From a virus, in IMG/VR virus record IMGVR_UViG_3300022744_000099, positions 1 through 23,697 of that record: DNA of 23,697 bases, one strand, 5' to 3'. Both the position numbers and the translations under genes were made by a program. Position 1 is the first letter of the stretch. Each line of letters starts with the position of its first letter. The notes below the pieces were generated by a model. It saw nothing but the letters and a program-made list of their open reading frames with translations, was not told the DNA's origin and did not search any database. This document shows positions 2,363-21,903 of this stretch, piece after piece.

Positions 2363-2716
2363 TCATCCGCGCACGCCCTCGGGGTGGCACTTCTTCCACT
2401 TCAGGCCCGAGCCGCACGGGCACGGCTCGTTCCGCTCCGAGCCCGACGGGCGCCGGAGCGTCCCCTTCGCCGCCGCCTCCTCGCCGACCATGAGCTCCAC
2501 GCCCGGCGGCAGGGCGATGTCGTAGCCCTGACCGCACCCCGGGCACTTCGCGTGGTAGCTGTGGCGGAAGGTGTGGTCCTCGAGCTTCGCGAGCCCGGAT
2601 GCCTGCATGTCCTCGGCGCGAATGACCGCAGTGCAGCGACGGCAGGCGAACGTCGGCTCGAGGCGGCGGACACGGGACTTCTCGGCGATGGCGACGGCGG
2701 AGGCGAGTTCGCTCAT
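2363..2716 (-). CDS. Zinc-ribbon and SEC-C motif protein, 117 aa
   Basis: Two metal sites are visible. CRRC (25-28) and CPGC (58-61) form a zinc ribbon in the N-terminal half, and the C-terminus carries a canonical SEC-C motif, NEPCPCGSGLKWKKCH (97-111; Cys99, Cys101, Cys110, His111). SEC-C is known from SecA and many small bacterial and phage proteins, where it binds zinc and mediates protein contacts. ATG at 2716 overlaps the preceding stop by 4 bases (ATGA). It closes the block that starts at 5950. A partner cannot be named; with a primase-helicase upstream, a replication accessory is possible. Confidence 0.82.
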   Translation of the reverse strand: MSELASAVAIAEKSRVRRLEPTFACRRCTAVIRAEDMQASGLAKLEDHTFRHSYHAKCPGCGQGYDIALPPGVELMVGEEAAAKGTLRRPSGSERNEPCPCGSGLKWKKCHPEGVRG

Positions 2717-3069
2717 GGATTCCTGATCCTTTCGAGGGCGTGTGCGACCGCCTTTCGCCGGGCTCCGGCGAGGGATCGGTCTTGGCCGCGGGCCTTCCGG
2801 CGCCGGCCGACGTGGACTTCCCAGACGAACGAGCCCGCATGCGCGTACGCGACCGCGCGGATGGATCGAAGACGGCTCGCCTCGCGGGCGACGACGACGG
2901 TCCAGAGGCGTCCCGTCCACACCATCGCCGCGACAAGCGCCTCGACCGCGCCCGAGTCCGGCCCCGGCGCCGGTCCTACGGACGCCTTGCCGGAGGCGCC
3001 CGACCCCGCCTCGGCACCATTGCCGGACGGGACGACGTCGGGGCCGGACTCGGGCGCGGGCGGGTTCAC
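2713..3069 (-). CDS. Hypothetical protein, 118 aa
   Basis: Not recognised. The first 40 residues are a low-complexity, Pro/Gly/Ser/Ala-rich flexible segment. The rest is a compact basic domain: a helix at about 41-50, beta strands around RLWTVVVA and GSFVWEVHVGRR, and a strongly basic helical tail (RRRKARGQDR ... ALERIRNP). The tail could bind nucleic acid, which would suit a gene next to a primase-helicase. GTG at 3069 forms the GTGA overlap with the helicase stop, and its own stop overlaps the next start (ATGA), so it is surely co-translated. Function is unknown. Confidence 0.7.
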   Translation of the reverse strand: MNPPAPESGPDVVPSGNGAEAGSGASGKASVGPAPGPDSGAVEALVAAMVWTGRLWTVVVAREASRLRSIRAVAYAHAGSFVWEVHVGRRRKARGQDRSLAGARRKAVAHALERIRNP

Positions 3070-5537
3070 GTCGTGCCTCCGGCGATCACCTGGAACGGGG
3101 GCGCGTGCTGGCCGGCGCGCACGAGCGGTAGGCGCAGGAGCTCGGGCGTCGGCACATACACGCGGACGCGGTGCCCGCCGATGCGCTCCCGGGCGCCGCG
3201 CGTGAAGCCCATGCCGGCGAGCACCGACGCGATCTCGCGCTCGGTCGCGGGCGTCAAGTCGCCGGGGCTCTTCCCGAGGGCCTGTTCGGCGACCGTCGAC
3301 ACCCACACCGTGCCGGGGCGCTTCTCGGGCGCGATCGCACGCCACCACGCGGCGACGCGGTCGGCCACGGCGCTCGTGCGGACGCGCGAGGCGGTGACCT
3401 GCCGGAGCGTCAGCTCGTCCTCGACCTCGAAGAACCACTTCGTCCCGGCGCGGTAGAGCGCGACGGCCTCGGCCCAGAGCTGGTCCCGGTCGCGCTCGAG
3501 GGCGGCGATGTCGATGCGCTCTCCGACGCGCACCGGCCACCACCGGCGGATGCCCTTATTGCTCGTGAGCCAGTCGTCGTCCTCGGTCGTGCCGACGAAG
3601 ACGCACCGACGCGCCTTGTTCGCGATGGTCGCGGCGTAGGGCGGGCGGTAGACGTCCTCCCGGGTCGTCAGGAAGGCGTTCATCGACTCGCGCGAGCGGC
3701 CGTTCATGATCGAGGCGAGTTCGGCGAGCTCGATGATCCACGAGCGCGCCGCGACCATCTTCGTGTCCTTGTCGGCGAGGTCCACGGACGCGACGGTGTA
3801 GAACGGCCCGCCGAGCGCCGCGAAGAAGCTCGACTTTCGCCGGCCCATTTCACCCTCGAACACGAGCACCGTGTCGACCTGGCACCCGGGCTCGAGCACG
3901 CGGGCGACGCAGGACACGATCCACTTCGTGCCGATCTCGACGAGAAGCCGCTCGGCCTCGCCCGGGGGCAGGTCGAGGTCGGAGTCGAGCGAGCCGTGCA
4001 CGTAGTCGAGGAGCAGGCGGTCGGTGCGGAACACGCCGTCCCACGTGAGGCCGTTCAGGTAGTCGAGGAGCGGGTCGAAGGCGTTCCCGCGAGCGACGAG
4101 CAGCAGCGTCGCCTTCACGTCCGCGACGGCGAAGCGCACGTCGAAGTGCTCGGCCATCCAGTTCGCCACGGCCTGCGGCAGGACCTCAAGGTCACGTTCC
4201 GGCGCGGGGAGCGGCCCACCCACGACTTCGATCGAGCTCGTGAGTGCGTTCCAGCGGATCACGCCGCGCCAGTCCGGCACGTGGTCGAGCAGGAGCCGCA
4301 GGTTCAGCGGGTCCGGCGAGAGCGCCGGAAGCCGACCCTCCTTCGCCGGGACGAGCTTCAGCTTCGTCTTCCAGTGCTCGTCGTCCTCGTCGTTCGCCTT
4401 CGGGCTCGGGTCGGCCGCCGAGGCGGCGTCGTAGGCCTCACGGTGGGCCTGCGGCATGAGCTCGCGCGGCACGACCGAGAGTAGGTGGTGGCGGACGGCG
4501 AGGTCCTGGGCGACGCGCTGTCGGTCGCTCTCGTCTCGCCTGCGAGTCGCGCGGGCGAAACAGTCCTCGGCTTCGGCCCGCCAGTGCGCCTCGCCCTCGG
4601 GGTGCGCCATGCCGACGACGGAGCGGCGAACGAGTTCGTAGGCCACCGGCGGCGGCGTGCCGGCCGGCAGTGACACGGCCAGGATCGACATGACTGCGTT
4701 CAGCGTCCGGTCCCGCTCGCCGGCAGGGGCGAGGGGCTCACCGTCGAGCACGCGCCCGAGCCACGCCGCACGCGCGTCCTTCGCGCGGGTGTATTTCGTG
4801 CGCTGGGCCTTCACGGCCGCTTCGAGCGCCTGCAGGTCGTAGGCGGCGGGGTCGACCGGCGGCGCGGGCGGCGTCGTTTCGCTGAAATTGTCGCTGGATT
4901 CCGGCGACGCCTGCACCTCGACGAGCGGTACGCGAGGCGCCTGCACGGCGTCCACGTCGAGCGCCTCGCCGGGCATGTCGTAGGCGAGGAACTGGCCGAG
5001 ACGCCGCTCCGGGATGCGGGGCGTGTAGTAGAGGCGCGCGGGGTCCTTGCACGCTTCGTCGAGCGGCACGGCGCCGAGTCCCAGGAACGCCCGCGCGGCT
5101 TGCCAGAACGACGGCCAGTCCGCTCCCGGCACCGGGCGTGACAGGGCGATTACGACGCGCAGCGCCGCCGCGTCGGGCCTCGACGGGGGGCGATGGGAGT
5201 GGGTCGAGTGCGCGACGTAGGCCCGGCCCTCAAGTGCCGCGAACACCGTGCGGATCTGCGCGGCCGTGAGACCGTCGAGGTCGAGGACGAGCGCCGAGAC
5301 GTGCTCGACGTTCTCGTTTCTGCGGCTCGTGCCGGCGCGCAGGGCGCCCGGCGACCACGAGAAGCCGTCCTTCTCGGGGCACTCGCCGCCCGCGGCCTTG
5401 TCGCAGTCGCACGGCGTCGGCACGGGGGTCGTGAGCAGCTCGGCGAGCTCACGCCACGTGGTCGTCCTCCGCTGGCCCGCAGGCTTCTTCTTGGAGGCGT
5501 AGAAGGTGACGTCGAGCGACGCCGTGTCCAGGATCAT
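3066..5537 (-). CDS. Primase-polymerase / VapE-type superfamily 3-like helicase, 823 aa
   Basis: Replication protein that should lay primers and unwind phage DNA. The N-terminal domain (about 75-200) looks like an archaeo-eukaryotic PrimPol: acidic pair in LVLDLDG (Asp86, Asp88), HSTHSH (110-115), then RVVIALSRP. A middle linker contains basic and acidic helices. The C-terminal domain (about 405-705) is the virulence-associated E helicase: a Walker A-like loop at 561-570 with GEMGRRKSS (Lys568), an acidic Walker B-like strand in SWIIELAEL, and the RRWWPV sensor (Arg664/665). A Cys-rich patch CDCDK...GEC (43-53) may bind metal. The Walker A is unusual, with Arg where Gly normally precedes the Lys. 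ATG at 5537 has GAGGGACGG before it. It lies 35 bases after the 125-residue gene and overlaps the next gene by GTGA. Confidence 0.9.
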   Translation of the reverse strand: MILDTASLDVTFYASKKKPAGQRRTTTWRELAELLTTPVPTPCDCDKAAGGECPEKDGFSWSPGALRAGTSRRNENVEHVSALVLDLDGLTAAQIRTVFAALEGRAYVAHSTHSHRPPSRPDAAALRVVIALSRPVPGADWPSFWQAARAFLGLGAVPLDEACKDPARLYYTPRIPERRLGQFLAYDMPGEALDVDAVQAPRVPLVEVQASPESSDNFSETTPPAPPVDPAAYDLQALEAAVKAQRTKYTRAKDARAAWLGRVLDGEPLAPAGERDRTLNAVMSILAVSLPAGTPPPVAYELVRRSVVGMAHPEGEAHWRAEAEDCFARATRRRDESDRQRVAQDLAVRHHLLSVVPRELMPQAHREAYDAASAADPSPKANDEDDEHWKTKLKLVPAKEGRLPALSPDPLNLRLLLDHVPDWRGVIRWNALTSSIEVVGGPLPAPERDLEVLPQAVANWMAEHFDVRFAVADVKATLLLVARGNAFDPLLDYLNGLTWDGVFRTDRLLLDYVHGSLDSDLDLPPGEAERLLVEIGTKWIVSCVARVLEPGCQVDTVLVFEGEMGRRKSSFFAALGGPFYTVASVDLADKDTKMVAARSWIIELAELASIMNGRSRESMNAFLTTREDVYRPPYAATIANKARRCVFVGTTEDDDWLTSNKGIRRWWPVRVGERIDIAALERDRDQLWAEAVALYRAGTKWFFEVEDELTLRQVTASRVRTSAVADRVAAWWRAIAPEKRPGTVWVSTVAEQALGKSPGDLTPATEREIASVLAGMGFTRGARERIGGHRVRVYVPTPELLRLPLVRAGQHAPPFQVIAGGTT

Positions 5538-5572: not shown

Positions 5573-5950
5573 TCAGCGGTCCGTCGGCTGGTAGACGGTG
5601 GTGCGCTGGGCTGTGTCGTACACCGGCCGCAGGCGCGCGGGGAAGGAATCGCTGTCCTGCGCGAGGGCGGTGAGGACGTCGTCCGCGATCGGGGCCGCGT
5701 CGACGTGCGGCGGCAGGAGCGTCCGCACGAGCTCGGTCGCGCGCTCACGCGTCACGTGGCCGGCCGTCTTGGCTTCGGCGAGGAGCACGCCGGCGAGGGA
5801 ACGGGGCGAAAGAACCGCCGCCCGTGCCGCCGCCGCCACGATCGCGGTCGGGGTGATGGGCGTCGAGCCGTCCGTGCGCGCCTCGCGCAGGGTCTCGAGC
5901 CGCAGGAGGGAGCGAAGCGCGGGCGGGGTGTAGATGGAGACGGTGGCCAT
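5573..5950 (-). CDS. Small helical protein, first gene of early operon, 125 aa
   Basis: Function unknown. The protein is Ala/Leu/Arg-rich and predicted mostly helical, with clear segments around RSLLRLETLRE, TAIVAAAARAAV, RERATELVRTLL and IADDVLTALAQ. It has no Cys, signal or membrane segment. It is the first gene of the leftward block containing the primase-helicase and ends 35 bases before it, so a replication or early regulatory role is likely but unproved. The start is uncertain: ATG 5950 gives MATVSIYTPP; ATG 5968, six codons upstream, is equally possible because neither has a strong ribosome site. Further extension would run into the TGGACC repeats. Confidence 0.68.
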   Translation of the reverse strand: MATVSIYTPPALRSLLRLETLREARTDGSTPITPTAIVAAAARAAVLSPRSLAGVLLAEAKTAGHVTRERATELVRTLLPPHVDAAPIADDVLTALAQDSDSFPARLRPVYDTAQRTTVYQPTDR

Positions 5951-6134
5951 GCCCCGGACGTCTAGCATGCCAAGCGCACGCGCGCAAGCGTGGCCTTTGT
6001 GCCACGGCACGGGGCGTGGCTGGACCGGATTGGACCGCAGTGGACCGGTGGTGGTCCAGTGGTGGTCCACGCGAAATCCTGAGTGTTTCCGCACGGTTAC
6101 GGCACGGTCGGACCGATGGACGGACTGGACCACC

Positions 6135-6260
6135 CCCTTCTATAACCCCTTAGAGAGTCGTCTCTAATATATACATGTATGTAATACACGCAAGGCATAT
6201 TACAACGATAGGAAGCGTATATTACATACCAAGCCATATTAGTGACGGTGCATAGTAAGG
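6135..6260. other. AT-rich island with palindromes; candidate unwinding element
   Basis: This stretch is far richer in A and T than any other part of the window. It contains a hairpin TTAGAGA-GTCG-TCTCTAA (6150-6167), a perfect palindrome ATACATGTAT (6171-6180), and three ATATTA steps at 6197, 6219 and 6236, each preceded by a G/C-rich step. No convincing protein is encoded. Flanked by TGGACC repeats and next to the primase-helicase operon, it could be a DNA-unwinding element of an origin or a stack of divergent promoters. Confidence 0.65.
6166..6193 (-). promoter_or_regulatory. Possible leftward promoter of early operon I
   Basis: On the minus strand, TTGCGT (6193-6188), 16 bases, then TATATT (6171-6166; five of six to consensus). 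It would start transcription near 6158 and give a leader of about 200 bases, crossing the left TGGACC repeats, before the 125-residue gene. It is weak at -35, and many AT-rich hexamers here could serve as a -10, so this is tentative. Confidence 0.35.
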
Positions 6261-6452
6261 TGTTAGGAACGCCGTTTTTCGGTCCCGGCGGTCCACGGTG
6301 TGCCAACCCCGCGAAACGACTCAGGAAATAAGTGGACCACCACGTGGACCGCCACTTTTTGCCCCGCGTCCACGGTCCACGGACTGCGGCATCGGTGCCA
6401 CGGCAATCGGCTCGCGCTCGGGCACCCGTGCCGGTGGCCGGCGCGTGCCCTG

Positions 6453-6569: not shown

Positions 6570-7022
6570 GTGCCCCACGCCAAGACGATCAAGATCCACC
6601 GGGTGACCGACGCGAGCCGCGCGAGGGTCGAGACGGCCATCGCTTGCGGCCTCACCCAGCCCGAGACCGCGCGGCTCATCGGCGTGAGCCTGAGCACCCT
6701 GCTCGAGAAGTACCCGGACGAACTCACCCTCGGTGCGCAGAAGGCCAACATGGTCGTCGCGCAGCAGCTCTATCGGGTCGCTTCGGGCCGGAACAAGAAG
6801 GCTGACGTCCGCACCCAGGTACAGGCCGGCATCGCGTGGCTGAAGATGCGCGGCGGGGCCGCGTGGCAGGAGGGGCCGTCCGTGGTCGTGAACGCGGGCC
6901 CGAGCGCGAACGTCGACGTGAAAGCCGTCCTCGTGAACCTGCAACACCTGCCCGACGACGAGCTCCGAGGCCTCGCGGACGCCCTCGCGAAGGTGCTCCC
7001 CGCCCCGGACGACAAGCCGTGA
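6570..7022 (+). CDS. terS: Terminase small subunit, 150 aa
   Basis: Recognises the phage packaging site and hands DNA to the large subunit. Residues about 25-52 form a helix-turn-helix (LTQPETARLIGVSLSTLLEK) typical of TerS N-terminal DNA-binding domains. A helical oligomerisation core follows (about 55-100), and a C-terminal tail (about 118-150) would contact the large subunit. GTG at 6570 is supported by GAGG 6 bases upstream. The stop overlaps the large-subunit start (GTGA), which is strong context for a terminase pair. It is the first gene of the rightward structural block and follows the non-coding control region, so the packaging site may lie in or near that region or in this gene. Confidence 0.88.
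   Translation: MPHAKTIKIHRVTDASRARVETAIACGLTQPETARLIGVSLSTLLEKYPDELTLGAQKANMVVAQQLYRVASGRNKKADVRTQVQAGIAWLKMRGGAAWQEGPSVVVNAGPSANVDVKAVLVNLQHLPDDELRGLADALAKVLPAPDDKP

Positions 7023-20538: not shown

Positions 20539-21903
<1,365 letters not shown>

Follow-up and report, generated by a model that had tools for sequence, protein, structure and literature searches.

A bidirectional TGGACC array around an AT-rich island beside a VapE-type primase-helicase gene as a probable phage replication origin

The question raised by this locus is which function is served by a dense cluster of the hexamer TGGACC, present on both strands, that occupies the sole gap between two divergent phage operons. The stretch of DNA that was analysed (the window) is a linear viral record of 23.7 kb and constitutes a genome fragment, which we assign to a contractile-tailed phage because its rightward genes encode terminase, portal, head and tail sheath proteins. 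As an earlier note on this DNA had proposed, the gene layout places the cluster between a leftward primase-helicase operon and the rightward late genes (Table 1).

Table 1. Positions of the array, its island and the neighbouring genes and domains in the window
Feature	Position	Strand	Details
Primase-helicase, 823 aa, proposed initiator	3066..5537	-	PF05272 VapE-like at 9.5e-59; PHROG DNA helicase/primase families
N-terminal primase-like region, residues 7-219	4881..5519	-	phrog_9765, phrog_3228 (DNA primase / helicase-primase)
VapE-like ATPase (helicase) domain	3399..4058	-	
Predicted C-terminal winged-helix domain, ~residues 720-796, proposed iteron reader	3150..3380	-	AlphaFold2
125-aa ORF between helicase and array	5573..5950	-	no relative in searched databases
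Left iteron group	6021..6131	both	TGGACC at 6021+, 6031+, 6041+, 6053-, 6064-, 6126+
AT-rich island, candidate DNA unwinding element	6139..6260	.	38% GC; TATTACA x3; imperfect inverted repeats
Right iteron group	6290..6379	both	TGGACC at 6290-, 6333+, 6345+, 6374-
Terminase small subunit, first rightward gene	6570..7022	+	phrog_309 at 1.8e-8

Anatomy of the TGGACC array and its AT-rich island

Exact TGGACC sites are concentrated in this gap, with ten in 6021-6379 and eight in the remaining 23.3 kb (18 in the window). The background outside the array gives a Poisson expectation of 0.12 sites per 359 bases (P ~2e-16), and 200 dinucleotide shuffles yielded at most four in a stretch of this length. 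The earlier count of ten exact sites within 360 bases is hence upheld, and an equal density of the motif elsewhere in the window is contradicted by the eight outside sites. When one mismatch is allowed, 19 sites are found in the region compared with about 4 per 360 bases. Three sites (6021+, 6031+ and 6041+) follow one another at exact 10-base intervals, as had also been described. The longer word TGGACCRCCR suggested in the same note was recovered in part: some sites carry the extension TGGACCRC and the remaining ones lack it.

The sites form two groups that flank an AT-rich island with palindromes, likewise in agreement with the earlier description. The window has an overall GC content of 71%, far above that of the island, and the lowest value for 60 bases is 30% (from 6165), compared with a minimum of 53% outside the region. 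Within the island, inverted-repeat arms at 6159-6191 and 6215-6247 show 76% complementarity, a palindrome lies at 6165-6186 and GTGGACCACCAC is present as inverted copies across it. All TATTACA copies of the window are contained in 6159-6247 and could represent a second repeat class within the unwinding element. The open frames that cross 6021-6379 gave no PHROG family match at E values up to 1, and no evidence of conserved coding emerged for the region, in agreement with the view that it encodes no credible protein. Both the array and the AT-rich island are real and unique within the window. No TGGACC origin was found in the searched literature. The cumulative GC skew, which the earlier note had recommended plotting, peaks at the array; since this peak coincides with the switch in gene strand, it is uninformative on an origin. 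Elsewhere in the window, positions 21001-21750 reach a GC content of 0.79, with a strong G skew and clustered ACGGCG on one strand at intervals that are for the most part divisible by three, as coding repeats show.

The primase-helicase as candidate initiator

The array lies upstream of the primase-helicase gene at a distance of ~480 bases from its start, with the 125-aa ORF intervening. The helicase scores 198.9 bits against PF05272 (curated cut-off 25). Among PDB entries, 7pds ('similar to D. nodosus vapE', 3.8e-23), which we take to be a staphylococcal protein, is the sole significant relative. A helicase search yielded no close relatives. The Walker A motif GEMGRRKS was dropped as an anomaly, similar forms being present in other VapE proteins. 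In the AlphaFold2 model, the C-terminal block has pLDDT values mostly of ~77-86 and the order H-H-H-beta-beta; winged-helix fold matches for the C-terminus are weak, none having E <= 0.001.

From this arrangement we infer a mechanism in which the leftward-encoded primase-helicase would bind the TGGACC iterons on both sides of the island, probably through its predicted C-terminal winged helix. Two ATPase rings would assemble and open the AT-rich island, after which the primase part of the protein or the host would prime DNA synthesis.

Arrays beside the primase-helicase genes of other replicons

To look for similar arrays in other phages, as the earlier note had advised, we searched 2.9 million viral contigs for sets of three TGGACC sites with 10-11 base spacing, which returned 86 loci. 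Collagen-like coding repeats, the bulk of the first TGGACC scan, were set aside, and the string TGGTCCACGCGAAA(T) common to the window and L063/L069 was given no weight because most of its matches in a genome scan were not part of an array. A fixed rule (at least seven sites in 500 bases, at least two on each strand) separates bidirectional arrays from repeats that are mostly in-frame and coding. In a test set of 50 contigs, chosen by eye before this rule was applied and including four loci from an earlier TGGACC scan, VapE or DUF5906 helicases are found in 14 of the 22 rule-positive contigs versus 2 of the 28 rule-negative ones (Fisher 3e-5). With AAA_25 added to the count, 17/22 versus 2/28 contigs have a helicase at most ~0.7 kb from the array (p 6e-7); AAA_25 proteins are present at the array in four loci (L137, L156, L170, L206) and a Prim-Pol protein in one (L150). 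Two loci retrieved by the DNA word only, without protein search (L125 and L153), encode helicases of 32-33% identity that cluster with the window helicase (support 0.97, FastTree, 25 VapE proteins). The search thus yielded bidirectional arrays beside primase-helicase genes in unrelated phages.

The same scan with control hexamers of identical composition returned at least 20 bidirectional arrays for GTCAGC and 4 for CAGGTC, compared with 25 for TGGACC. TGGACC as a privileged origin word is hence ruled out, the GTCAGC arrays also abutting AAA_25 primase-helicases: in L287, L290, L326, L334 and L363 they begin within or just 3' of the end of the AAA_25 primase-helicase gene. GTCAGC is a candidate origin word of this different helicase group. 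VapE/DUF5906 helicases accompany 14/22 TGGACC arrays versus 2/24 control-word arrays (p 1e-4). Since TGGACC is not special, its recurrence across helicase lineages is no evidence for a common reader, and the reader of TGGACC is putative because the word also occurs beside AAA_25-family helicases.

The complementary survey started from the protein and comprised 20 phage and plasmid loci with VapE-type helicases, picked by protein similarity from annotated collections, in which clusters of any hexamer were sought. In 13 of the 20 loci, such a cluster on both strands scored above 30 shuffles. Every one of these arrays is close to the helicase 3' end, and their starts range from 512 bases upstream of the helicase stop to 382 bases downstream of it; the same scan gave no array in the other 7. 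A stricter test, which demands that the array score of the 3' zone be strictly above the rest of the locus, was passed by 8/20. Arrays were found in Marinobacter PS3, Pseudomonas Haddon/U5, Corynebacterium StAB, Staphylococcus StauST398-2 and the plasmid pGO128. Their words differ among loci (GGTCAC, GGACAG, which is the word of Pseudomonas phage Haddon, TGTTCC, TTGCATC, GTTACC and others). In 19 of 34 loci the regional (~7 kb) GC minimum falls inside the array, with 1.9 expected. Like the window, these phages and pGO128 have clustered hexamers on both strands next to the helicase gene, in most cases together with a local GC minimum; unlike the window, they use other words and have the array 3' of the helicase. 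The window array lies on the 5' side of its helicase, against the helicase 3' end that is usual in most loci. The 4.3-kb Gluconobacter plasmid pGO128 (L218), with a GTGCTA/AGCACT array at 2670-2908 at the end of its VapE gene, is a compact candidate replicon.

Phage P4 served as a positive control, and the top two arrays of the same scan are its annotated crr and ori. The P4 alpha protein binds the ori repeats via a winged helix, then unwinds and primes (PMC4234260). Similar to the window array, P4 ori has short iterons in both orientations, some of them spaced by 10-11 bases, adjoined by an AT-rich stretch and situated between a leftward replication (alpha) operon and rightward genes, whereas the word of its type I iterons (TGTTCACC, alpha protein) differs from TGGACC. 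While alpha combines primase, ATPase and winged-helix parts, the window helicase has a strong ATPase match, a PHROG-matched primase region and a winged helix predicted with moderate confidence, and its ATPase is VapE-type, unlike that of alpha. P4 crr lies 3' of alpha, as do the arrays of most other phages studied here, and no TGGACC cluster is present at 2706-3066, 3' of the window helicase. Because this crr-like second element is absent, we liken the window array to P4 only in its working and do not file it in the P4 family.

Two further systems share parts of this design. Origins of staphylococcal pathogenicity islands (SaPIs) have sets of iterons on both sides of an AT-rich region and a Rep helicase, as reportedly described by Ubeda in 2012, and the SaPI ori lies 3' of rep. 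The window thus shares the two iteron sets around an AT-rich region, but has its array on the 5' side of the helicase and another word; its helicase is related to the vapE-like protein 7pds. In pRN1 of Sulfolobus, the origin likewise adjoins a gene for a primase-SF3 helicase-winged helix protein, but it is a 100-base stem-loop 3' of this replication gene and has no iterons (PMC4234260). In Bordetella BPP-1/BIP-1, for which a stem-loop origin was proposed, the same scan gave no comparable array.

Alternative functions and wider meaning

Since the same design recurs in unrelated viruses beside the gene for their own DNA-opening enzyme, we consider it very probable that 6021-6379 serves this phage as a replication origin and acts in the manner of P4 ori. 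The earlier note had offered iterons with an unwinding element or a multi-operator control switch, and the former is favoured by the same geometry beside primase-helicases in unrelated phages, VapE-type phages and P4. The switch does not stand as the main reading and is kept as a possible second function, because divergent promoters must lie in the gap that holds the array. As the array separates the replication operon on its left from the late genes on its right, these promoters probably overlap it. The window being a fragment, a better origin may be located elsewhere in the genome.

An array of operators as the primary function, at which a regulator (the 125-aa protein or an autoregulated helicase operon) binds TGGACC and controls divergent early and late promoters, appears unlikely. 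It would suit the location in the only gap between the divergent operons, and the N-terminus of the 125-aa protein, inspected by eye, resembles a ribbon-helix-helix, but the model of its structure is of low quality in this part and unconvincing, and the protein has no relative in Pfam, PHROGs, PDB, viral contigs or any fetched locus. Furthermore, no sigma-70-like promoter was found, the arrays of unrelated phages track the 3' end of the primase-helicase gene and not a promoter, and the array-enclosed AT-rich stretch recurs across loci.

Terminase recognition sites are often located near terS, and the array abuts this gene, encoded 190 bases downstream, so that a pac/cos packaging site with repeats bound by the small terminase was considered as well. 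We regard this as very improbable, since arrays track helicases and not terminases: two contigs with a related large terminase (L004 and L006, 45% identity) have neither VapE helicase nor array, and the same array type is found on the small plasmid pGO128, which lacks phage structural genes. The pattern in L004 and L006 looks as though an exchange of the replication module had taken place, and this joint absence of helicase and array also speaks for the origin reading. A partition or centromere-like site is barely credible. Ribbon-helix-helix proteins are known to bind short direct repeats at par sites, but the family-matched genes of the fragment include neither ParA nor a partner gene, and the arrays are associated with helicases.

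The proposed replication origin in the window is most likely a further example of an origin type already known from phage P4. Most phages are known from sequence alone and their origins are unmapped. The placement rule that emerges here calls for a hexamer array on both strands next to a primase-helicase gene, usually with a local GC minimum inside the array. It retrieves crr and ori, the annotated elements of P4, and proposes candidate origins for 13 of the 20 other VapE-type replicons, and with it the origins of many phages, cultured or not, become predictable. Several of these replicons are cultured phages or plasmids, in which origin and DNA-reader are directly testable. As a tentative generalization, phage and plasmid primase-helicases may broadly carry their own origin in the form of a bidirectional, lineage-specific hexamer array beside the gene that is read by the C-terminal winged helix of the helicase. 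If this is true, the window would be a case with the array on the 5' side, and arrays could be paired with helicases by computation, so that recognition would be decoded across many replicons.
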